Shown here one piece after another: positions 1 through 18,856 of a stretch of DNA of 20,345 nucleotides. The number at the start of each line of letters is the position of its first letter. The stretch's first letter is position 1. Source of the DNA: a virus; IMG/VR virus record IMGVR_UViG_3300025806_000294, positions 1 to 20,345 of that record; one strand, given 5' to 3'. Made by a program: the position numbers and the translations under genes. The notes under the pieces are model-generated. The model was not told the origin of the DNA, ran no database searches, and was given only the letters and a program-made list of their open reading frames with translations.

Positions 1-2269
1 CCTTCTGGTTACTTAACGAATCAAACAAAGCCTTTAGCTCAGGGTCTGCGTTAACCTTACTAACAATAGAAGTATCTGAAATCCTATCAATACCCACAAC
101 ACCCTTAGGGGTTACCTTTAATCCCTTGAAACCCTGAACAATGCCCTTAGGGTCTAAGCTGTTGGTTAATTGAATGAGCTTATCACCCAACCCTACAAGA
201 GCTTTGTATCGTGGACTCTGAAGTCTAATGTTATCCTTAGCAGCCTTAAGCTGTGGCTCAGCCATGTAACCTTCTGCTCCGAAGAACATGTGACCAAAGC
301 CCCTAAGCAATGCTCTTTCCTGTGTAGTATTACTACCGGGTTTAATTACATACTTAACACCAGAGCCAATGATATTACGCATCATGTGGTTAGTCTGGAA
401 GCTATTGTTCTGAATAACATTAAACCTATGAGTTCCCGACTGATTGTTGAAGGTATGATAAAAAGGTTTACCTGAATATTGACCTAGCATCCCAGCAACT
501 TCCATGTGCTTTGCTACAAAACTAAAGTAAGCTGGTCGTAGTTCGCTCCCTGCTACAGGTATAATAGGTTTACCCTGCTCATCTTGCTTTACTAAATACT
601 CTGGGTTGTGCTCTGGTATAAGTGCATACTGGGCAGCTGGAGTATATTTAGCTCTAACCTTTTCGACAGCTTCCTTTTGTTGAAGTAAGACTTCCCTCCT
701 GTACATTAAATCTTTAGCGTTCGTAGGTCTAAGGGCTAACTTATTAGCTATGTCTTCTAGCTCTAGGTTAATAGCTTCAAGCTTAGCTGCCTGCTTTTGA
801 CCAATCTGCATAACCTTATTGATACGCTCACTACCTTGCTCTACTAAGTTGTGAGTAAAGTTTTCTGAAGTTGGCCCAAAGATAACCGGGTTAGTAGCTA
901 CAGCTGCAGATTGTAATGCTGCAAAAAGAACACCTCTTCTGCTATCAATAACACTCATAACCTGAGAAGAGTTATGAATGGCTTCTTCTACTTCCTCGGG
1001 TACGGGGTTAGGGTTAGCTCCAGATCTAGTAGGAAGTAAGCTACTCTCGTACTGGTATCTGCCCTCAGTTGGTGGTACATATAAGAACTGCTTGTTAAAG
1101 TTTGGTACAGATACATTACCAGCTTCTTGCCTTAGAACCTGCTCACCAAATGGTGTCAACACGTACTGAGACTCACCGCCCTCAGGCCCCATGTTAACCT
1201 TATTAACCATGCGTGGGTTAACTGCTTGGTAGTAAGCCATCAAAGACTTACCGATTAACTCAAAGGCTTCAGGGGTAAGGTTACGGAAGTCCTGCACATA
1301 CTCATCAGTATCTGTGCCTTCCATGTCTGCTATAACTCTACGAAGTTGTTGGAAACTATCACGACCAAGACGAGACATACTAACATCTGCTTCATCTACT
1401 ACCGCAGGGTCAAAGGTATCCTCTTCTTTAGTCGCTATCTTTTCTCTAGCAGCAGCTTGGTTTAGCATAAAATCTTCAACCGCCATAGAGATTACAGGGT
1501 TAAACTTTTTATTGATACCAGCTACCTGCTCACTACCTTCAACTGACCTACGATTAGTCAATCCACCCAAAGCTTTCTTAGAAGTAAAGATATTCTGAGG
1601 TGTTAAGATTAAAGAACTTTTGTCCTTTCTCATCATCATAGGTTTATCTTTAGAGCTCTCTAGCTTAGCCTTATCCTTAGCTTCAATAGTCTCTTCAAAC
1701 TTATCGGTACCTACATCCACGTCAGCTGCTACATTGTCAAACGAATCCAACCTAAGGTTCACTACATCATAAGCCAATGGGGTGTTCACTGTAGCTGCCA
1801 ACCTAGTACCAGTGTAAGGTCCTAGTTGAGTAACTATGTTATCTAAGTTTGTAGATAAACCGTTAGCTCTAAGGAGGCTAGGGACCTTTTCAGATTCCCT
1901 TTGAGCTTGTTGCTCAGGACTTAGTTCTTCTACAGGAGCTCCTGCAGTTTCTATAGTTTCCTTAAGAGCATCAGCTGTGCCTACCGAAGTAGCACCCTGT
2001 TCATGGGCAGTCTCTGTCGCAGCAATTGTAGCATCAAGCCTATCTTTAGCTGATAAGCCTAAAGAGTCTACTGGGTTTTTTAATAAACCTACAGACTCAA
2101 GCTCTGCCTCTGTAGCTGTACTAATAAGTGGGGCATCCCGCCCCTTTTCTTCATCCTTGGGAATGGCAGGAGCATCTTGCTCTAAGTTTTGTATCAAGTC
2201 GTATTGCTTAGCTTTTACGTCTTGCGGTGTTTCAAAGACTTGACCTACTACTCTTGGGCCTTTAGCCAT
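1..2269 (-). CDS. Giant internal virion protein, partial; possible virion RNA polymerase
   Basis: The frame is open from the ATG at 2269 to the left edge: 756 codons, no stop, so the C-terminus is missing. The start lies in a TAATG overlap with the stop of the 1581-residue gene. Residues 1-130 are acidic and low in complexity and contain a short motif, ATEAELESVGLLK (52-64), shared with the upstream giant. Residues about 480-545 look like a coiled coil. Residues 602-634 (around SGTHRF, 611-616) resemble the palm entry of T7-type single-subunit RNA polymerases: Arg615 would match the Arg of DxxGR/TxxGR, and Gln625, Asn627, Met629, Arg631 and Ile633-Ile634 fall at the same offsets as Q, N, M, K, L-L in T7 RNAP. 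The catalytic Asp, Lys/Tyr and HD motifs would lie beyond the window, so this is unproven. Placement after the ejection proteins fits a protein packaged in the virion and injected. The alternative is another internal core protein with no enzymatic role. Confidence 0.85.
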   Translation of the reverse strand, partial: MAKGPRVVGQVFETPQDVKAKQYDLIQNLEQDAPAIPKDEEKGRDAPLISTATEAELESVGLLKNPVDSLGLSAKDRLDATIAATETAHEQGATSVGTADALKETIETAGAPVEELSPEQQAQRESEKVPSLLRANGLSTNLDNIVTQLGPYTGTRLAATVNTPLAYDVVNLRLDSFDNVAADVDVGTDKFEETIEAKDKAKLESSKDKPMMMRKDKSSLILTPQNIFTSKKALGGLTNRRSVEGSEQVAGINKKFNPVISMAVEDFMLNQAAAREKIATKEEDTFDPAVVDEADVSMSRLGRDSFQQLRRVIADMEGTDTDEYVQDFRNLTPEAFELIGKSLMAYYQAVNPRMVNKVNMGPEGGESQYVLTPFGEQVLRQEAGNVSVPNFNKQFLYVPPTEGRYQYESSLLPTRSGANPNPVPEEVEEAIHNSSQVMSVIDSRRGVLFAALQSAAVATNPVIFGPTSENFTHNLVEQGSERINKVMQIGQKQAAKLEAINLELEDIANKLALRPTNAKDLMYRREVLLQQKEAVEKVRAKYTPAAQYALIPEHNPEYLVKQDEQGKPIIPVAGSELRPAYFSFVAKHMEVAGMLGQYSGKPFYHTFNNQSGTHRFNVIQNNSFQTNHMMRNIIGSGVKYVIKPGSNTTQERALLRGFGHMFFGAEGYMAEPQLKAAKDNIRLQSPRYKALVGLGDKLIQLTNSLDPKGIVQGFKGLKVTPKGVVGIDRISDTSIVSKVNADPELKALFDSLSNQK

Positions 2270-5200
2270 TAGTTATCTCCTGTTATCCATTGGGCTTGTA
2301 CCATACTATCGTAGATACGATGTTTGAATGGTGATCCTAAAGGGAGAAGACTCGCACCTGATTTAACAGTAGCTCTTGAGTCACCTTCTATAAGACCATG
2401 CCCTAGTTTATAAACGTTTTCAAAGATAGCAGAAGAAGGTGCTTCACCAGTACCGAAGTTCCAGATAGCTTCACCCATAGTTCTACTTCTATCTTCATAC
2501 AAAGGGAACAGCATGTTGTTGCTAAGAACCCTTTCAGTTGTACCTAGTAACCCTGAACTATACAGGGCTCTGAGGTACTTTTCGTTATCTTCTAAGTAAG
2601 GTGAAGACTCACCAAACTTAATAAGGTCCTTCAAGTGTTGAGCAGCATAACCAAGTAACAGCATAGACATTAAAGTTGCAAACGTAGAGTACTTAAACCC
2701 TGGAGTTGCACTCTTAACTAGGTCATACAGTCTTGGTATGTGATGCGCTGTGAACTTAGATATAAAACCTTGGAACTGCGTAAACATAGCGTAGTGAGGA
2801 TCACTGTAGAACAAAGGTCTGCCCATAGCATCTGGTAAAGGTACAGCTTCATTGATAAAGTTAAACAAACCGTTATCAAACTGTGCTTCCCAATCTGCTT
2901 GTAACTTAGGGCTAGGGTTACCTTCAGCTGCTAGTAACTCCTCAGACAACTCTAACATCCTGTCAGGTGGTACACCCATCTTCTCGAGGAACCTTCGGGC
3001 TTCTCGAGTTTCGTTAGTGTCAGCTGTACCTTCGTTCTTCTGCTGGTGTAGTATGTCTAAGTTTCTGATTAAGAAGTCATTAAAGAAAGAAGCTCGGACA
3101 GTACGTGTTGCATTAGTAACAGCATTCAAACCAATCACCTTAAAGAATGCATCCATAAGGTTCTTAGTGAACTTGTTAAATTCTGTAACACCTGTTAGCT
3201 GAGCCTGACCTGTCCTAGCGTCACCGTAACCTACCCTTCTATTCAAACCTGCAGGGTCATTGTACTCAACAAACCGTACATCTGTGTCCTTTTTATTTCT
3301 ACTTTTAATCTTAGTCTCAAAGCTACTACGCTGTGGGGCAATGCCCGTAAGCCTACCAACCTCTGCAAAGTACTCAAAGATCTCACGCCCTAAGATCATA
3401 CCTAAGCTACCTACGTTCTTGTTAAGTGTTTTTACATCAACACCTACAGGTGTCAAAGCAAACTCAACAATAGACATAGGGGCTGCAAGGCCAAGCATAG
3501 TGAGTACACCAGTAAGCGTCAATGCTTTCTGAGTACCCCTAAGTACGTCACTCTCAATACGTTTGTAGTTACCAGAGTCAGCGTTAATAAGATCTCGAGT
3601 AAGCCTTGCTATGTCATTGACATCAGCGTTAGCAACTTCTGCATCAGCAGACTCTTCCTCAAGCCCTTCGGTAAACTCTCGTTGTATCTTATCAAACATA
3701 CTGGTAAGTAGTGAACTATTAGGTCCAACAAACTTAGTCATAGTAGTGTATCGAGCTGCAGACTTCATAGAGTTTTCTAAGTTATCAAAGAGATTATTCT
3801 CAAAGAACTCAGAAAAAGCGTTGTTATCTGCAATATCTAACGATCTACGCTTGTGTGTCTTAGGGTTTATACCACCTTTAGTTAAGTCGAATGCATCGTC
3901 TAGTGTGTTAATCTCAGGGTTATCCAAGATAGCATTAGTAACAGCATTAGCTTCTTCAACATTCAGTCCTTTCTCTGACATAAGAAGGTTAATAAACTTT
4001 TCTTTGTTAGCAGAAATAGCTGACTTTAAAAAGCTTTTACTTCTAAAGATGTGATCCTGAAGGTCCCCAATAGGGGGTATGTTAGCCCGTGCCTGCGCAA
4101 GAGTAACGCTTTCATACATCTTACGGTCTACTTGATACAGTCTATCAATAAGGTCCTTAAGAGCTGCAGAGTTTTCTTGAAACTCAGGCTTAGATAGGTT
4201 GTCCCAATCAATCATAGCAACAACAGAGTCACCAGTTATCCATGTCTGGTTGTTATCTTGCTTCTCTGTTACAGGTTTAATGTGTACATTATAAAAATCA
4301 TACACAAGAGCAGACAGTGCCTCACGCTTAGCACCAGATCTTCTACCGTCTAGTTTAAAAGCAGAATACAAAGCTCTAACTTCAGGTATTACTCGTTCAA
4401 AGGATTCAAAGTTAAGCATCTTATCTGAGTGAAAGTCAATACCAGCATGTACTTTGGTAGCCTTACCACCAAGCATATCGTATAAACGTCTCAGAGTCTT
4501 GCTCTTTTGCAGTCTCTCGATAGTAAAGACAGTATCCCTAGCATCCCTAAGGGTAAACGCAGGGTCCATTAGACCGTCCTTAAGGGACTCTGTGGAGGGC
4601 TTAGCATCATAGTCTGTTTGACCAGCATCAGCTCTATCGGAGAACTTTACGTCCTCGACTGCCTCTGCATCTACGTCAGCTTGTTTCATCTGATCGTACT
4701 CATCTATGTCGCCTTTAGGTTTCTTAGGCTTAGGGCTACTCTTAGCTCTAGTAGTATCAGCCCACTCTTCTTCAATAATCTCACTAAGATCAGCTACACG
4801 CCCTGTATCGGGGTCCTTAGCTTCTGAACGGAATGTATCAGCAGCGTCATCAAACCTGCCATCATACTCAGACATAGCAACAGTTGCATCTCGCCACTGA
4901 CCTGCTTCCCAAACACCACCGGGTAAAGAAAAACCTGCACCCATAAGTCCACCAGCTATAACAGCATTGGTCATTCGGTGTTGTAGTTCGTCAAAGTCCC
5001 AAGTTTTCTCAGAGCCTATGACTGCAGCAGTGTACATTGTGAGTTCCTGAAGCATCTCTGTGCTTCCCTCGAATGCTGCACCCTGTGCCAATCGCTTAGA
5101 TAAGTCTTTTAAGACAGCACCTTTGGTTAGTTGTAACTTTGTAAACTTAGCTACGTCATCTGCATAAGAAACAATCTGTCTCTTAGTCATTTTCTGTAGT

Positions 5201-7014
5201 GCAAGTGCAGCTTGTTCTCTAGTAAGGCCTACTCGCAATGCATTACCAACTTTATCAGAAGGTAACATCGACACTGCTCTTGCTCTTGAAGGTCCTGTAG
5301 ATTGCATAACCAACTTGATAGCTGATTCTTTACCCTCTTTAGTAAGAAACTGAGAAGGTTTAATAAGACCTGCAGCACCCTTGACACCAAAGACATCTAG
5401 TGCAGCAGCTATACCACCGCCTACAATAGCAACACCATAGTTCTTTTGGTCTTGCTCTCCGGGCATTTCATCCAGAATCATACCTGAATACATAGCTACT
5501 GGAACACTAAGGCTACCTCCGAATGTAAAAGGAGCAGCCACAATAGAAGCGATAGTCACCCCCATAAAAGGCATAGAGGTTGCAAGGTTAGCACCCACAA
5601 ACTCACCAATCTCCCCAAGGTCTGTCCAGTTTACATCACGGTAGTCTAAACGTACTTTAGGTTTGTCAGATAGTTGCTGTCTTGAGTAGTCAATACTGCC
5701 CAGAAGTGATGCCTCAGCCTCTTCAAAGCCTGTTACGTCAGCAGCCATTACACCTACTTGCTTAAATGCATTACCAACCATGGTAAGTGCAGAGTCCCAA
5801 GACTGGGAGAAGGGGTGTATAGCTCTGTTCTCGTATGTAGCATTGTTGTTACGAATAACTACATCAGTGTAGAAGTCAGGCATGAGTGAGTACTCTGCTT
5901 CATTCAAGGCTCTCTTCTTAGCTATGATTTCTCCACCAGTACTCTCAAGGCTAGCAGCCTTAATAATCTGAGAAGCAATCTCTATGTCACTCTTCTTTCT
6001 GTACGGATCAGCAATAGACCGATCAGCTACTCCATGTAAGTATCGTGAGTAGTCATCATCGCTCATAGTCTTAGTAGTTCTACCAATAAGGGTAGGCTTA
6101 GCAATACCTGAGGATATCAAAAGATTCTGGAAAGAGTTACCCTCCTCGTCTACTAGGTCACCAACCTTACGGCCATACCCAGCATCTTCATCTTTTACTT
6201 TTACTTTAGTGTAGCCGTAACGGTTAGCTAACGAAGCAATGTACTGCTTAGCTACCTGACCACCAGACTCACCCATGATGTAGCCCTTATCCTTAAGGAC
6301 CTTTTCAACTTCCTCGATGTCTATCCCTTCAAACCTAACAGACTCGCTAGTTTCTTTATTACGGAAAGTATCACCATCAATAAACTTATATCCTGAGTCA
6401 CCGATGTCATAGTCGGCTTCGGAGGGTGCAGCCTCAGGAACTGCTCTCCTCTTTTCTGCGTAACTTGAGACAGCATCAGAGACTCTCTTCATGCGCTTAT
6501 GCACACCAGAGCCAGTTACCTCTGAGTTACGGTAGTCATTGTTATCAAGGAACTCCTGAGATGCCTGAGCGTAGTTACCTTGATTAAGTAGTTTTAGAAA
6601 CGTAGGTGAATGTCCAAGGTCTCCTCGGTACTCAGCTTGTATAAGCTCAGCCTGAAGGTCCTCAGGGTATTCATCTAAGTTTGGGATTCTTGTTCTGGCT
6701 CTATCAACGTGGTGTGTAAATGCAGCTTCAAAACCTGCTTCAATCCACTGACCAGTTTGGCCTACACCTTGAGTAGTAATACCCTTAGTGTCGGTATAAG
6801 GGGTAGCAACGTACCCCTCTTCCTCTACGACTCTCTTCTCAGCATAAGTAAGTGGGCGACCAATGTTACCCTCTACCTGTGCTATAGCGTCAGAGCCATA
6901 GTAGACTTCCTTGTCCACCGTACTATCAACTGTAGGATTAGAGTCGGTACTTGCGCTCTTTAGCAAACCTACCTCTTGTAATTCTTCATCTGTAGCTTTA
7001 ATCTTGTCGCTCAT
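2269..7014 (-). CDS. Giant internal virion/ejection protein with GH24 lysozyme and SNase-like nuclease domains
   Basis: This 1581-residue protein is probably stored in the capsid and ejected during infection. Residues about 50-190 form a GH24 (T4-lysozyme-type) muramidase: Glu66, Asp75 and Thr81 are spaced exactly as Glu11, Asp20 and Thr26 of T4 lysozyme, and the C-terminal lobe (LGHSPTFLKLL, then VHKRMKRVS at 171-179) is present. Residues about 205-335 match staphylococcal nuclease: IDGDTF at 212-217 gives Asp213 and Asp215, then Arg227, Asp232, Glu235 and YGR with Arg282. Only the Thr41 equivalent is changed (Ile233). Hydrophobic stretches at about 473-510, 526-550, 684-700, 1165-1190 and 1440-1460 could enter the host membrane, as T7 gp16 does. 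Residues 750-815 are charged linker. The last 170 residues resemble a C-terminal domain seen in other large phage virion proteins (recalled, not searched). The ATG at 7014 has AGGAGA upstream. Role by inference: local wall digestion, channel formation and possibly cleavage of host nucleic acid. Confidence 0.9.
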   Translation of the reverse strand: MSDKIKATDEELQEVGLLKSASTDSNPTVDSTVDKEVYYGSDAIAQVEGNIGRPLTYAEKRVVEEEGYVATPYTDTKGITTQGVGQTGQWIEAGFEAAFTHHVDRARTRIPNLDEYPEDLQAELIQAEYRGDLGHSPTFLKLLNQGNYAQASQEFLDNNDYRNSEVTGSGVHKRMKRVSDAVSSYAEKRRAVPEAAPSEADYDIGDSGYKFIDGDTFRNKETSESVRFEGIDIEEVEKVLKDKGYIMGESGGQVAKQYIASLANRYGYTKVKVKDEDAGYGRKVGDLVDEEGNSFQNLLISSGIAKPTLIGRTTKTMSDDDYSRYLHGVADRSIADPYRKKSDIEIASQIIKAASLESTGGEIIAKKRALNEAEYSLMPDFYTDVVIRNNNATYENRAIHPFSQSWDSALTMVGNAFKQVGVMAADVTGFEEAEASLLGSIDYSRQQLSDKPKVRLDYRDVNWTDLGEIGEFVGANLATSMPFMGVTIASIVAAPFTFGGSLSVPVAMYSGMILDEMPGEQDQKNYGVAIVGGGIAAALDVFGVKGAAGLIKPSQFLTKEGKESAIKLVMQSTGPSRARAVSMLPSDKVGNALRVGLTREQAALALQKMTKRQIVSYADDVAKFTKLQLTKGAVLKDLSKRLAQGAAFEGSTEMLQELTMYTAAVIGSEKTWDFDELQHRMTNAVIAGGLMGAGFSLPGGVWEAGQWRDATVAMSEYDGRFDDAADTFRSEAKDPDTGRVADLSEIIEEEWADTTRAKSSPKPKKPKGDIDEYDQMKQADVDAEAVEDVKFSDRADAGQTDYDAKPSTESLKDGLMDPAFTLRDARDTVFTIERLQKSKTLRRLYDMLGGKATKVHAGIDFHSDKMLNFESFERVIPEVRALYSAFKLDGRRSGAKREALSALVYDFYNVHIKPVTEKQDNNQTWITGDSVVAMIDWDNLSKPEFQENSAALKDLIDRLYQVDRKMYESVTLAQARANIPPIGDLQDHIFRSKSFLKSAISANKEKFINLLMSEKGLNVEEANAVTNAILDNPEINTLDDAFDLTKGGINPKTHKRRSLDIADNNAFSEFFENNLFDNLENSMKSAARYTTMTKFVGPNSSLLTSMFDKIQREFTEGLEEESADAEVANADVNDIARLTRDLINADSGNYKRIESDVLRGTQKALTLTGVLTMLGLAAPMSIVEFALTPVGVDVKTLNKNVGSLGMILGREIFEYFAEVGRLTGIAPQRSSFETKIKSRNKKDTDVRFVEYNDPAGLNRRVGYGDARTGQAQLTGVTEFNKFTKNLMDAFFKVIGLNAVTNATRTVRASFFNDFLIRNLDILHQQKNEGTADTNETREARRFLEKMGVPPDRMLELSEELLAAEGNPSPKLQADWEAQFDNGLFNFINEAVPLPDAMGRPLFYSDPHYAMFTQFQGFISKFTAHHIPRLYDLVKSATPGFKYSTFATLMSMLLLGYAAQHLKDLIKFGESSPYLEDNEKYLRALYSSGLLGTTERVLSNNMLFPLYEDRSRTMGEAIWNFGTGEAPSSAIFENVYKLGHGLIEGDSRATVKSGASLLPLGSPFKHRIYDSMVQAQWITGDN

Positions 7015-7041: not shown

Positions 7042-9489
7042 TTACTTCATTTTATTTATTACGTCTTGCATGCTTCCTGCAAAGTACTTAGAGCTTGTAG
7101 CGGATTTATTTCTATCCATAGACATAACCCAAAGTAAAGCGGGGGATGCCCCCTGTCCTTTCTTATCAGCAGAGTCTTCTGATTCAGATTCCCAAAAGGT
7201 TTTAAACTCAGGTCCCATTTCTTCAGATTGCTTGTTGTAAAGTCTTTCTAAGTTACTCCACATAGCTACTTTGGGTACTGCTTTATTAGCACCTATTTCT
7301 TTACCAAAAGCACTAGCTAAATACTTAACTTTAGCTGTAGCTTTAGACCAAGCTTCGCCACCAATAGCATCTTCAGAGTCATCTCCTACAACCTTAAAGA
7401 AAGAAGGGCTGATTGAATACTCAGTCTCAACCTTAAGTCTTTCTTTTTCCATAAAGGCTGCAAGGTTTTTAGAATTACCTTCCATACCCCTAGCCACAGA
7501 CTGAATGTATTTTTGAACTGCATTAGTAGAAACCTCTTGCAGGTTAAAGTCACTAAAGTCAGTGCCTGCTGGGTAAAAGGATTTAAATGCTCTAGCAGCT
7601 CCATTTCTTACAGTGCCGTTTATAGCGGAGTTAAGTCTAGTAGTTAGTGCTTCAGCTTCCTCAGTCTCAAGTCCTTGTTCGCTAACATAAGTAGCAATAG
7701 AACCTTCAACATCAAGATCTATGTTAGCTCTTATACCAGAAATAATATCGTTACCAGTTAAACCAACCCCTACACTAAACCGCTTACCACCTTGAGCTGC
7801 TCTTACATTAGCAACAGGGAGTACAGGGTATACACCACTTGCATCTGGCTCTATACCTAAGGACTCGTAGAAGCTAGCGTCATCAAGACGAACCATTGTA
7901 CCGTCAGCAGAGAAAGCACCTGTAAGGTTTGTCTCTGTTTCTTTGTCGTAAATAGTTGCTACCTTAGAAGGGTCAATAGCTTTAGCTTTCTTCTCTGCTT
8001 TAAGAGTAGCTAAGCCTTCCTTACCATATATCTTCTCAAGCTCAAACTCTTGCTTTCTTTCAGCAGCTTGTACTTTCCACTCATTCTCTAGTACTTGACC
8101 AGCAAAGGTAACACCATCGTAGCCTAAGGCTCTAGAACCCACATAAGCGAATAGTGTCTTACGGAAAGCTGGGTCTTCCATACCTTCCTTAAACATATCC
8201 TTCATGCCACCCCAAAGTTTCTTAAGGAATCCTTCCTTCTCTTCTGGAGGTGCATCCTTCTTAGGAGCAGTACCTGCACCCTTAACTAGAGCATCCGCAT
8301 CAGTTTTAACTGGATCTGTAATAGTAGTCTCAGCTTCTTCAGCGTCTTGCTGTGTAAGGTTACTGCCACCTGTAACATCTGGTTGCGTAGTTGTAACAGC
8401 TGGTTGAGTAGGTGTTAAGTCTACTGCAGGTTCAACCACAGGGATATTAGATCCTTCTGGTTCAGGTATGTCTGGGAATAAAGCCTCTCCTGCTTCACTT
8501 CCTGCGTAAAGACCTGCACCTGTAGCCCCTGTTTTTATAGGGGAAACTGTAAACACTTCTTTAGTAGTTTTTACCGGATCATAAACCCCCGGCTGGCCCT
8601 CTCTTTGTACCTTGGTAGTGGTACTTTTACCCGGAACTGTTTTAGTGTTACCAAAGAAATCTCTAAACCTTTTAGGTAATTTACCTCTAGTAAAGTTACT
8701 TAGTTTACCAACAACCTTAGCTGCCCCACTAGTTACAGCGCTTCCTATTCTTGCAGCGGGGTATAAGGATACACCAGCAGCTGCAGCTTCTACAGGATTA
8801 TCTTTAACCCAGTTAGCAAACTCATAAGTTTTATCAAGTGTTTCTTGGCTAGAGACATCTTCTTCAAACCCAGAAGGTAAGTATGAAGGCCTTGGGGCTC
8901 TCATGTTATCAAAGAACGAGGGCTCTCTCTCAACTTCCTGTGATCCTTCAGAACCCACTGTCTGACTAAGTTTAGCTGGGCCTTGAGGCATAGAGTCTAA
9001 AAAGTTAGGATCAGTAACTTGAGGGATATTACCACCAAGCTGAGGTACTTGCTCTATGCCCCTAGTAGGTTCAGGTGCTTCAGGTGCTTCAGGTAAACCT
9101 TGAGCAGATTCTCCTAACACTACCTGTTCAGGTGGACGTAGGACAAAGTTATCAGAGTTTGGAAGAGGAGCAGCTGTAGGCATTGTAGGCTGAGGTATGT
9201 TCATTTGCACAGGGGGTACAACACCGATGTTATCAAAAGACTCTGGTGTATACTGTTGGTTAAATGCTGTGTCTACTGGCATTAGCTTAGATGGGTCCAT
9301 ATTTTGCTGGAATGCTAATTCCTGAGAGGTCTCTTGTAGCGGAATAAACTGCTGAGGTGCCATAGGTATCTGAACCTGAGGGATCTGCTGTTGTGTCATT
9401 TGAGGAACTTGGAATCTATTTACATCTTCCGCATCCATATCATCCACTAGGCCCCTAAGGAGCTTTGATAAATCTGTTATATTAGACAT
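7042..9489 (-). CDS. Internal virion (ejection) protein, Pro/Gln-rich N-terminus
   Basis: This 815-residue protein has no family I can name with certainty. Residues 25-200 are rich in Pro and Gln (PQMTQQQIPQVQIPMAPQQ at 29-47) and are probably disordered. Residues 232-262 and 312-337 are Ala/Gly-rich and weakly hydrophobic, compatible with membrane contact. A basic stretch at about 262-300 lies between them. Residues 338-415 are a Pro/Thr/Glu-rich linker. From about 416 an amphipathic segment (FLKKLWGGMKDMFKEGM) begins, followed by a charged helical region and a folded C-terminal half. It lies directly before the lysozyme-nuclease giant and after the Gly/Ala-rich protein, the place and size of P22 gp20-type or T7 gp15-type ejection proteins. 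The ATG at 9489 has AGGAGA seven bases or so upstream. A role in the ejection conduit is inferred from context; a scaffold-like role cannot be excluded. Confidence 0.8.
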   Translation of the reverse strand: MSNITDLSKLLRGLVDDMDAEDVNRFQVPQMTQQQIPQVQIPMAPQQFIPLQETSQELAFQQNMDPSKLMPVDTAFNQQYTPESFDNIGVVPPVQMNIPQPTMPTAAPLPNSDNFVLRPPEQVVLGESAQGLPEAPEAPEPTRGIEQVPQLGGNIPQVTDPNFLDSMPQGPAKLSQTVGSEGSQEVEREPSFFDNMRAPRPSYLPSGFEEDVSSQETLDKTYEFANWVKDNPVEAAAAGVSLYPAARIGSAVTSGAAKVVGKLSNFTRGKLPKRFRDFFGNTKTVPGKSTTTKVQREGQPGVYDPVKTTKEVFTVSPIKTGATGAGLYAGSEAGEALFPDIPEPEGSNIPVVEPAVDLTPTQPAVTTTQPDVTGGSNLTQQDAEEAETTITDPVKTDADALVKGAGTAPKKDAPPEEKEGFLKKLWGGMKDMFKEGMEDPAFRKTLFAYVGSRALGYDGVTFAGQVLENEWKVQAAERKQEFELEKIYGKEGLATLKAEKKAKAIDPSKVATIYDKETETNLTGAFSADGTMVRLDDASFYESLGIEPDASGVYPVLPVANVRAAQGGKRFSVGVGLTGNDIISGIRANIDLDVEGSIATYVSEQGLETEEAEALTTRLNSAINGTVRNGAARAFKSFYPAGTDFSDFNLQEVSTNAVQKYIQSVARGMEGNSKNLAAFMEKERLKVETEYSISPSFFKVVGDDSEDAIGGEAWSKATAKVKYLASAFGKEIGANKAVPKVAMWSNLERLYNKQSEEMGPEFKTFWESESEDSADKKGQGASPALLWVMSMDRNKSATSSKYFAGSMQDVINKMK

Positions 9490-9500
9490 ATTAGTCTCCT

Positions 9501-10190
9501 TTAAATAAACCTACGAGGACCACCGCCACCAGATTGCTTCATTCGTTGTTGACGATTCAAAGCTGCTCTTTGGTACGGACTAACTTGTTCTTGTCCTGAA
9601 CCTTTAAGTGCAAGGCTTGGGCCTTGTTGTATTTGTGCTTGCGGCTGTGGTTTCATCAAGCCAATTGCACCTTGAGCTGCTATGGTTTTAGCAGTGTCAC
9701 TTGTCAAGGCTTCTTTGCCTTTAGCCATAGCAGCATTAGTCATAGCACCTACCTTACTAGCACCTATTTTACTACCCATAGTACCTGTGTGTGCAATACC
9801 AGTGGAAGTGTTTATAGCTGCTCCGGGTAGTACTGATTGAATACCTACTGGTGCTGCCATAGAAGATGCTGCTGGCGCTGCCAGTGCTGTAGGTGCTGCC
9901 AGTGCTGTAGGTGCAGCCCCCATGCCTGCTACGCCTGCGCCTGATATACCTGTTGTCATTACGGGAGCTACTGCTCCTGTTGCTGCTCCTGCTGTACCAG
10001 CTCCTACTGCTCCTGCTGTACCAGCTCCAGCTCCTGCTGCACCACCTATACCCATCATCGGTGCTGCTATTGGCGCTAGTAGTCCAGCACCTAGGCCCAT
10101 AAGAGCTCCTTTCTTTCTATCTTCTGGGTTAGCCAAAGCACCTAATGCTGCCCCACCTAACGCTAATGTTGCCATAGTTGCAAAACTCAT
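9501..10190 (-). CDS. Gly/Ala-rich ejection-type protein
   Basis: The 229-residue product is dominated by Gly and Ala. It opens with a hydrophobic stretch (MATLALGGAALGALA, residues 6-20), then NPEDRKKGALMGLGAG, an arrangement I know from phage DNA-transfer/ejection proteins. Residues 45-115 are a low-complexity glycine-zipper-like region including two copies of PTALAA (94-105). The C-terminus is basic and polar with a Gln-rich stretch (181-190) and ends in GGGGPRRFI. Such segments can insert into membranes. The start overlaps the stop of the cupin gene by four bases (ATGA), which suggests translational coupling. Function is inferred from composition and from its place among ejection genes; P22 gp7 is a possible functional analogue but I claim no homology. 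Confidence 0.75.
   Translation of the reverse strand: MSFATMATLALGGAALGALANPEDRKKGALMGLGAGLLAPIAAPMMGIGGAAGAGAGTAGAVGAGTAGAATGAVAPVMTTGISGAGVAGMGAAPTALAAPTALAAPAASSMAAPVGIQSVLPGAAINTSTGIAHTGTMGSKIGASKVGAMTNAAMAKGKEALTSDTAKTIAAQGAIGLMKPQPQAQIQQGPSLALKGSGQEQVSPYQRAALNRQQRMKQSGGGGPRRFI
9874..10032 (-). repeat. Short tandem repeats in the Gly/Ala-rich gene
   Basis: Two copies of an 18-bp unit (encoding PTALAA) lie around 9881-9918, and two copies of a 24-bp unit occur at about 9985-10008 and 10009-10032. They sit inside coding sequence and keep the reading frame. They probably arose by slippage and account for part of the low complexity of the protein. Confidence 0.7.
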
Positions 10191-18457: not shown

Positions 18458-18856
18458 TTATTTATCTCGTTGAACGCCTTTGGCTTTCTCAACGGTCCTC
18501 ATGGCACCTAGGCCAAGCATACCTAATAGCACAGGCATCATCTCTGATAGAGCTATAAGGGGTATAGTGATTGTAGAATTGGATAAAGCAAGCGCAAAGT
18601 TTGCCATCGGTATGACCAAGAAGTTACTTGCCATTCCCAAGCAACATACCCAACCCACAGCTGGCCTCCAACCTGCGACGAATAAACTTTTGTGTTCCGC
18701 TTCTTTCTTATTAACTTCAATCTGAGCTTTAGAAAGTACCTGCGCATGCTCTTGAGCCATGGTTGCAATCTTGTGGGCAATGGCATTCTTCTTGTCTTTG
18801 TCCTCTATAAATTTATCCAGTAGCCCTGTAACAGGCCCTATAAGTTGTGCTAGCAT
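18458..18856 (-). CDS. Holin, GTA 3TM type
   Basis: The 132-residue product matches the layout of the 'holin of 3TMs, for gene-transfer release' family. An N-terminal amphipathic helix (MLAQLIGPVTGLLDKF) is followed by a charged helical region with many Lys/Glu/Gln (18-56), then AGWRPAVGWVCCLG (61-74), the family's GWRP signature, within a first membrane segment (about 59-90), a second segment (about 96-118) and a basic tail. It would form pores in the inner membrane and time lysis. AGGAGAG lies just upstream of the ATG at 18856. No separate endolysin gene is visible nearby; it may lie outside the window. Confidence 0.85.
   Translation of the reverse strand: MLAQLIGPVTGLLDKFIEDKDKKNAIAHKIATMAQEHAQVLSKAQIEVNKKEAEHKSLFVAGWRPAVGWVCCLGMASNFLVIPMANFALALSNSTITIPLIALSEMMPVLLGMLGLGAMRTVEKAKGVQRDK

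Follow-up and report, generated by a model that had tools for sequence, protein, structure and literature searches.

The closest described counterparts of the gene studied here are the virion RNA polymerases (vRNAPs) of phage N4 and its relatives in the Schitoviridae. The N4 vRNAP possesses motifs A, B and C together with TxxGR, and R440 and E557 (mini-vRNAP numbering; equal to R1437 and E1554) are among the residues around the phosphates of the initiating NTP (PMC4496689). ExDGxxxG is the diagnostic motif of the N4 vRNAP, and the full-length N4-type protein (2,842–3,820 aa) is one of the seven hallmark genes of the Schitoviridae (PMC10654107), the other six being DNAP, MCP, portal, tail, TerL and TerS. 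The N4 literature ties the absence of cysteine from the vRNAP to passage through the tail and periplasm (PMC3715699, PMC3915230). Earlier statements restrict N4-type vRNAPs to N4-like phages (PMC5512222), and an IMG/VR survey for N4 viruses dropped vRNAP-like proteins of less than 2,500 aa (PMC10654107). A vRNAP was also proposed for StenR_269 from size, helix content and lack of cysteine (PMC10747016), which we weighed as prior art.

The window analysed here is a 20,345-nt stretch of viral DNA (IMG/VR record IMGVR_UViG_3300025806_000294, positions 1 to 20,345). A giant gene lies at its left edge, where the reading frame of 756 codons is still open (Table 1). We consider it very likely that this gene encodes a compact, catalytically intact single-subunit RNA polymerase (RNAP) of the N4-vRNAP type from a marine podovirus, which would be packaged, injected and used to transcribe the first genes before a T7-like RNAP takes over. 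This view is based on the homology, the fold, the intact motifs, the order of the genes, the scarcity of cysteine and a T7-like RNAP gene as constant neighbour.

Table 1. Features of the window that bear on the giant gene and its surroundings.
Feature	Position in window	Strand	Basis or remark
N4-vRNAP-like single-subunit RNA polymerase, first 756 residues	2..2269	−	Full length about 1,318 aa, remainder beyond window edge
TxxGR-equivalent block, aa 611–634 (SGTHR ... Q625 ... R631)	368..439	−	Arg615 codon 427–425, Arg631 codon 379–377; both invariant in 23 relatives
Predicted ejection protein, 1,581 aa, directly upstream of the giant	2269..7014	−	phrog_6958 virion structural (E 1.8e-19), PF00959 (E 0.0033), PF00565 (E 0.043); 0 Cys
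Predicted ejection/virion protein, 815 aa, same block	7042..9489	−	Position; no Cys, no family match
Ala/Gly-rich protein, 229 aa, same block	9501..10190	−	Position; no Cys
Protein resembling phage DNA ejection protein, 267 aa	10698..11501	−	phrog_4287 DNA ejection protein (E 3.2e-4); no Cys
Tail-fibre-like protein, 1,140 aa	12345..15767	−	Numerous imperfect TGVTATSEALDxIETKVN-type repeats
Three-TM holin of gene-transfer-agent type	18458..18856	−	PF11351 (E 4.5e-19)

An IMG/VR scan with the 756-aa protein found near-identical contigs that read past the window edge. Contig L006 was 100% identical over residues 336–756 and then ran on to a stop (983 aa from residue 336), which together with the window part gives a total of about 1,318 aa. 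Contig L005 contained the complete gene (1,313 aa, 86% identity to the window protein), and only the start was missing from contig L004 (95% identity). The sequence-only reading had given the protein at least 756 residues, and the frame indeed continues far beyond that point. The window (positions 1–2) and contigs L002 and L003 all stop within 1–2 bases of one another inside the giant gene, and other contigs read through; the shared end is an assembly break, not a genome end.

The initial clue was a block after Arg615, in SGTHRF, where Q, N, M, R, I and I had been noted at +10, +12, +14, +16, +18 and +19. All six are present, and the T7 RNAP residues given for comparison (Q, N, M, K, L, L after Arg425) are correct, NC_001604 reading DWRGRVYAVSMFNPQGNDMTKGLL there. 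Taken alone, a six-position match picked afterwards is weak evidence. Among 23 aligned giants (as little as 15% identical to the window protein; residue numbering = L006 residue + 335), Arg615 and the Arg at +16 were invariant (23/23) and Gln +10 was common (17/23), whereas the N, M, I and I positions were merely chemically similar. The proposed equivalence of SGTHR with TxxGR held for the Arg and not for the Ser and His, which are unconserved; the T and G are likewise unconserved in N4-type vRNAPs. As a reference set, 12 vRNAPs of diverse Schitoviridae were fetched and aligned. R1421, Q1431 (+10) and R1437 (+16) are invariant in all 12, with the spacing of Arg615 and Arg631, so the informative part of the signature is its conserved part.

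The catalytic motifs had been predicted to lie left of the window, and they were found just past the edge (EIDGISNG, KPPLMTFPYG and IFDAVITD). The stretches NAIEIDGISNGL (Asp795), NFLKPPLMTFPYGQ (Lys901, Tyr909) and LPIFDAVITDLGSFEAVERKIN (Asp1139, Asn1156) correspond to the A, B and C motifs of single-subunit RNAPs. Motif C had been expected to read HD; the Asp is there, preceded by Phe in the window lineage, and the family as a whole uses His, Tyr, Phe or Trp at that position. The protein thus shows the Asp of motifs A and C, the K(x7)YG of motif B and the DxxGR/TxxGR Arg of the single-subunit T7/N4/mitochondrial RNAP superfamily. Sixteen columns are invariant in the 23-giant alignment (R615, R631, D795, G796, N799, G800, G809, G818, R846, Y909, G910, G991, D1108, D1139, A1140 and N1156); most are catalytic-core positions of single-subunit RNAPs, and K901 is kept in at least 90% of the sequences.

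The comparison with the reference set was close. Conserved in the 12 vRNAPs were R1421, Q1431, R1437, E1554, D1556, G1557, N1560 (11/12), G1561, K1667, D1948 and N1965, and the window protein shares the equal spacings of R, +10 and +16, ExDGxxNG, YG at K+8, F/H/Y-D-A/G and the Asn at D+17. N4 motif C also reads Phe-Asp. The Asn 17 residues after the motif-C Asp is common to the giants and all 12 N4-type vRNAPs and is absent from the T7-like set. The diagnostic ExDGxxxG occurs in the window lineage (EIDGISNG) and in 26 of the 48 dereplicated relatives, and both R1437 and E1554 of N4 have counterparts in the window protein. Two positions differ. At +13, the N4 K437 position (mini-vRNAP numbering), the window lineage has His and the three remaining subgroups have Lys. 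The Arg of the motif-B RxxxK (R1663, 12/12 Schitoviridae) is replaced by Ser in the window lineage and by Lys or another residue elsewhere.

These losses would suit a degenerate polymerase fold that no longer makes RNA and was retained for a role in ejection or DNA translocation, as would the diverged CRP-7 type, in which the motif-B Lys is Arg and motif A has a two-residue insertion. Such a protein is very unlikely here. Both catalytic Asp, the YG and the motif-B Lys are kept in nearly all of the 23 highly diverged giants, and a pattern search found motifs A, B and C in 48/48 dereplicated giants outside the CRP-7 type. The retention of these motifs across such divergence points to selection for catalysis.

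Single-protein searches of Pfam, PHROGs and PDB sequences gave nothing usable, and PF00940 (Pfam RNA_pol) did not match the window giant at E up to 1. A Pfam H_T_assoc match at the motif (E 0.08–0.2) was dismissed as weak and below the cut-off. The family profile run against PDB sequences (hmmsearch) missed N4, which was reached only by profile–profile and fold comparison. With hhalign, the window subgroup matched the N4 vRNAP at 97.6% (E 3e-12) and the merged family at 99.1% (E 5e-19), these E-values being those of single pairwise comparisons, to be read against decoys; for the merged profile, reversed profiles, a neighbour, primase and DNA polymerase reached at most 0.3%. The match to T7-like RNAP required the merged family (91.3%, E 1e-6), the window subgroup alone giving none (0.3%). 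Weak independent tblastn matches were obtained from two subgroups, both to N4-type vRNAPs. The reading of the signature as that of an RNAP therefore stands, with a profile nearer to N4 virion RNAP than to the T7 RNAP it had been compared with.

AlphaFold2 was run on a 23-row alignment over 983 residues, from residue 336 of the window protein to the end, and gave a model with mean pLDDT 79.1 and pTM 0.77. Structures of the N4 virion RNAP are available (PDB 2PO4, 3C46). The Foldseek PDB list was led by T7, mitochondrial and N4 RNAPs, and every listed row was a single-subunit RNAP. In VIA-align the N4 mini-vRNAP (Z 20.2, rmsd 5.6, 601 residues) was tied with yeast mitochondrial RNAP (Z 19.8) and T7 RNAP (Z 19.7), and the best BFVD match was a Vibrio N4-like vRNAP. 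The predicted structure is a right-hand polymerase fold with RNA polymerases as its top matches. The counterparts of the N4 promoter-hairpin contacts might lie in the first 335 residues, upstream of the modelled part. The giants share this fold and the catalytic motifs with T7-like single-chain RNAPs, but they lack the PF00940 match, have the Asn at D+17 and are nearly free of cysteine, and a separate bona fide T7-like RNAP is encoded by the same phages. Homology, motifs A–C and fold together support the suspected virion RNAP signature as far as the polymerase is concerned.

A family A DNA polymerase or a primase relative, making DNA or primers, would have the right-hand fold in common with the model. 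At motif-B K+4, Phe or Tyr is the residue rule for DNA polymerases, but 47 of the 48 dereplicated giants have Met or Leu there and none has Phe or Tyr. With hhalign there was no signal against the phage's own DNA polymerase (0.1%), and the top structural matches were all RNA polymerases, so that we give this identity almost no credence. A helical core or ejection protein like T7 gp16, with the polymerase signature arising by chance, is extremely unlikely as well, and we count it as refuted. The giant does lie among ejection proteins and is similar in length to T7 gp16 (about 1.3 kaa), but the motifs, the profile–profile scores and the fold search all indicate a single-subunit RNAP rather than a helical core protein, and a lysozyme-like end is already present in the neighbouring 1,581-aa protein. 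In that neighbour, the lysozyme-like segment (aa 64–167) is followed by a weak staphylococcal-nuclease-like segment (aa 226–312, below the cut-off). An injected nuclease, if this segment is real, would be unusual.

As the sequence-only reading had noted, the gene follows ejection proteins; it is the last gene of a block of giant predicted ejection proteins. N4 gp50 is likewise the final gene of its ejection block and convergent with the early and middle genes. This place is kept in diverged lineages. Only 3 cysteines were counted in 44,933 residues of 36 giants, against 135 in 7,444 residues of the T7-like RNAPs of the same phages, and there were none in the window part of the giant, in the flanking ejection proteins or in the 12 reference vRNAPs. 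We infer virion status from the position at the end of the ejection block, the near-absence of cysteine and the homology to packaged enzymes. It would also be conceivable that the giant, though a genuine RNAP, is not packaged and instead acts as a second polymerase synthesised later in the cell, its place beside the ejection genes being accidental. We consider this unlikely, given the constancy of that place in diverged lineages, a scarcity of cysteine exactly like that of the flanking ejection proteins, and packaged vRNAPs as the nearest homologs. On the packaged-polymerase reading, the giant RNAP would be a late product that enters the particle together with the ejection proteins encoded next to it and, once injected with the DNA, transcribes the first genes.

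The T7-like RNAP, from the tail-to-tail neighbour gene, would then assume middle and late transcription. In near relatives, the gene after the giant is convergent and encodes a T7-like RNAP (PF00940, E 1.6e-57). With the T7-like RNAP as bait, 80 loci were retrieved. Wherever a contig ran on for 1.5 kb or more past the T7-like RNAP (52/52), a giant gene lay on the opposite strand, and all 55 giant/T7-like RNAP pairs were convergent. The reverse scan, from motif A of the giants, recovered a T7-like RNAP at all loci long enough to include one; five others (L118, L119, L128, L135 and L150) are cut off by the contig end before its place. The two scans have many contigs in common. The group comprises 60 dereplicated full-length giants, which are diverse. 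Phage P23-45 also has two phage RNAPs in relay, one of them carried in the particle, as is proposed here from the genes; its tail-tape-fused virion RNAP and its non-virion RNAP, however, are homologous to cellular enzymes and not of the single-subunit type (PMC10770324).

The layout could be followed in a 52-kb relative (L112 + L043 + L113). The terminase, portal, scaffold and capsid genes run leftward, followed by a 650-bp noncoding divergent region; early and middle genes then extend rightward as far as the T7-like RNAP, beyond which the giant polymerase gene and the ejection genes again point leftward. In this genome two exact copies of the candidate T7-type promoter AGTACCTTATAGAG face the terminase and one precedes a middle gene, the latter site recurring in relatives; the first early genes have no exact copy directed at them. 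This placement fits a relay in which another polymerase would serve the early genes. AATTAAGTACCTTATAGAGGG is a candidate promoter sequence for the T7-like RNAP. A candidate T7-like promoter (A/G)GTACCTTATAGAG, often inside AATTAAGTACCTTATAGAGGGCACCCTAGAA, was located at L043:1012, L198:7581, L033:137, L021:693, L112:12335 and 12361, and L196:7389; these sites are conserved, before a middle gene and facing the terminase. When the early region of the 52-kb relative was searched, neither hairpin promoters nor sigma-70 promoters rose above chance. Two relatives (L112:12403, L196:7192) have a 13-nt hairpin, TAAAG-GGT-CTTTA, in the noncoding divergent region, but its orientation to the early genes is opposite in the two, and the number of hairpins was near chance.

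The giants differ from N4-type vRNAPs in size. The dereplicated relatives are 1,116–1,366 aa long, about one third of the N4 vRNAP (1.1–1.37 kaa versus 3.0–3.7 kaa in the N4 type). The C-terminal, peptidase-like HExxH module, present in all 12 reference vRNAPs, was found in none of 36 giants. The partner polymerase is a single-chain T7-like RNAP here and the RNAPII heterodimer in N4, and the genome contig of one relative is 52 kb versus about 70 kb in N4. With giants of at most 1,366 aa and a single-chain T7-like RNAP, these phages lack the full-length vRNAP hallmark of the Schitoviridae. Counting against the preferred N4-vRNAP-type reading are the motif-B Arg to Ser and Lys +13 to His changes in the window lineage, the missing HExxH, the one-third length and the fact that no conserved early hairpin promoter was established.

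Roseobacter phage CRP-7 (MK613349), whose host is roseobacter RCA, was the only isolate found; its T7-like RNAP is 38.6% identical. Its gp33, annotated as hypothetical, has no cysteine and a motif C of HDALITG. Like the window giant, gp33 is convergent with the T7-like RNAP (gp30), has the same gene place and is followed by two giant cysteine-free genes. It differs in a motif A spaced as DARQSNAG and in the Arg of motif B, and there was no BLAST similarity between gp33 and the window protein. With hhalign the CRP-7 type matched subgroup GB at 88%, and against N4 it gave 37%, on the wrong region. In a low-confidence model of gp33 relatives (pLDDT 59), single-subunit RNAPs matched first. Because of the profile link to subgroup GB, the position and this model, gp33 is probably a diverged version of the same gene; that it is an active polymerase is less certain than the kinship.

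In our judgement it is moderately probable that infection by a large, mainly marine podovirus clade including CRP-7 begins with an injected compact vRNAP and passes on to a T7-like RNAP, so that the clade's first transcripts would be independent of host RNAP; the vRNAP would then not be confined to the Schitoviridae, and the C-terminal half of the N4 vRNAP would be dispensable for the core job. The enzyme that begins transcription of the phage genes is thus probably supplied by the phage itself in this wide group of marine phages, which also make an ordinary T7-type polymerase. Proteins of 1.1–1.37 kaa fall below the 2,500-aa filter and would therefore have been excluded from the IMG/VR survey (PMC10654107). 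No paper describing the compact giants was found in the literature searched, most subscription literature lying outside it. Giant genes of this family stand unannotated in marine viromes, and the results suggest what they do. The occurrence of the enzyme across a diverse group that pairs it with a T7-like RNAP makes two questions directly testable: does transcription of the first genes depend on host RNA polymerase at all in these phages, and is the large C-terminal half of the N4 vRNAP needed for injection or for regulation only? With CRP-7 a cultured phage exists.

The T7-like RNAP gene itself varied among loci. In L117 (8356–10879, minus strand) its frame is split in two ORFs around motif A, possibly by an intervening sequence or a frameshift. 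L179 and L181 have the same short C-terminal ORF, and L180 has one long ORF. The two-polymerase cassette of L117 sits in a contig binned to a Dehalococcoidia MAG (CALGTL010000115.1), which is probably a misbinned phage contig.
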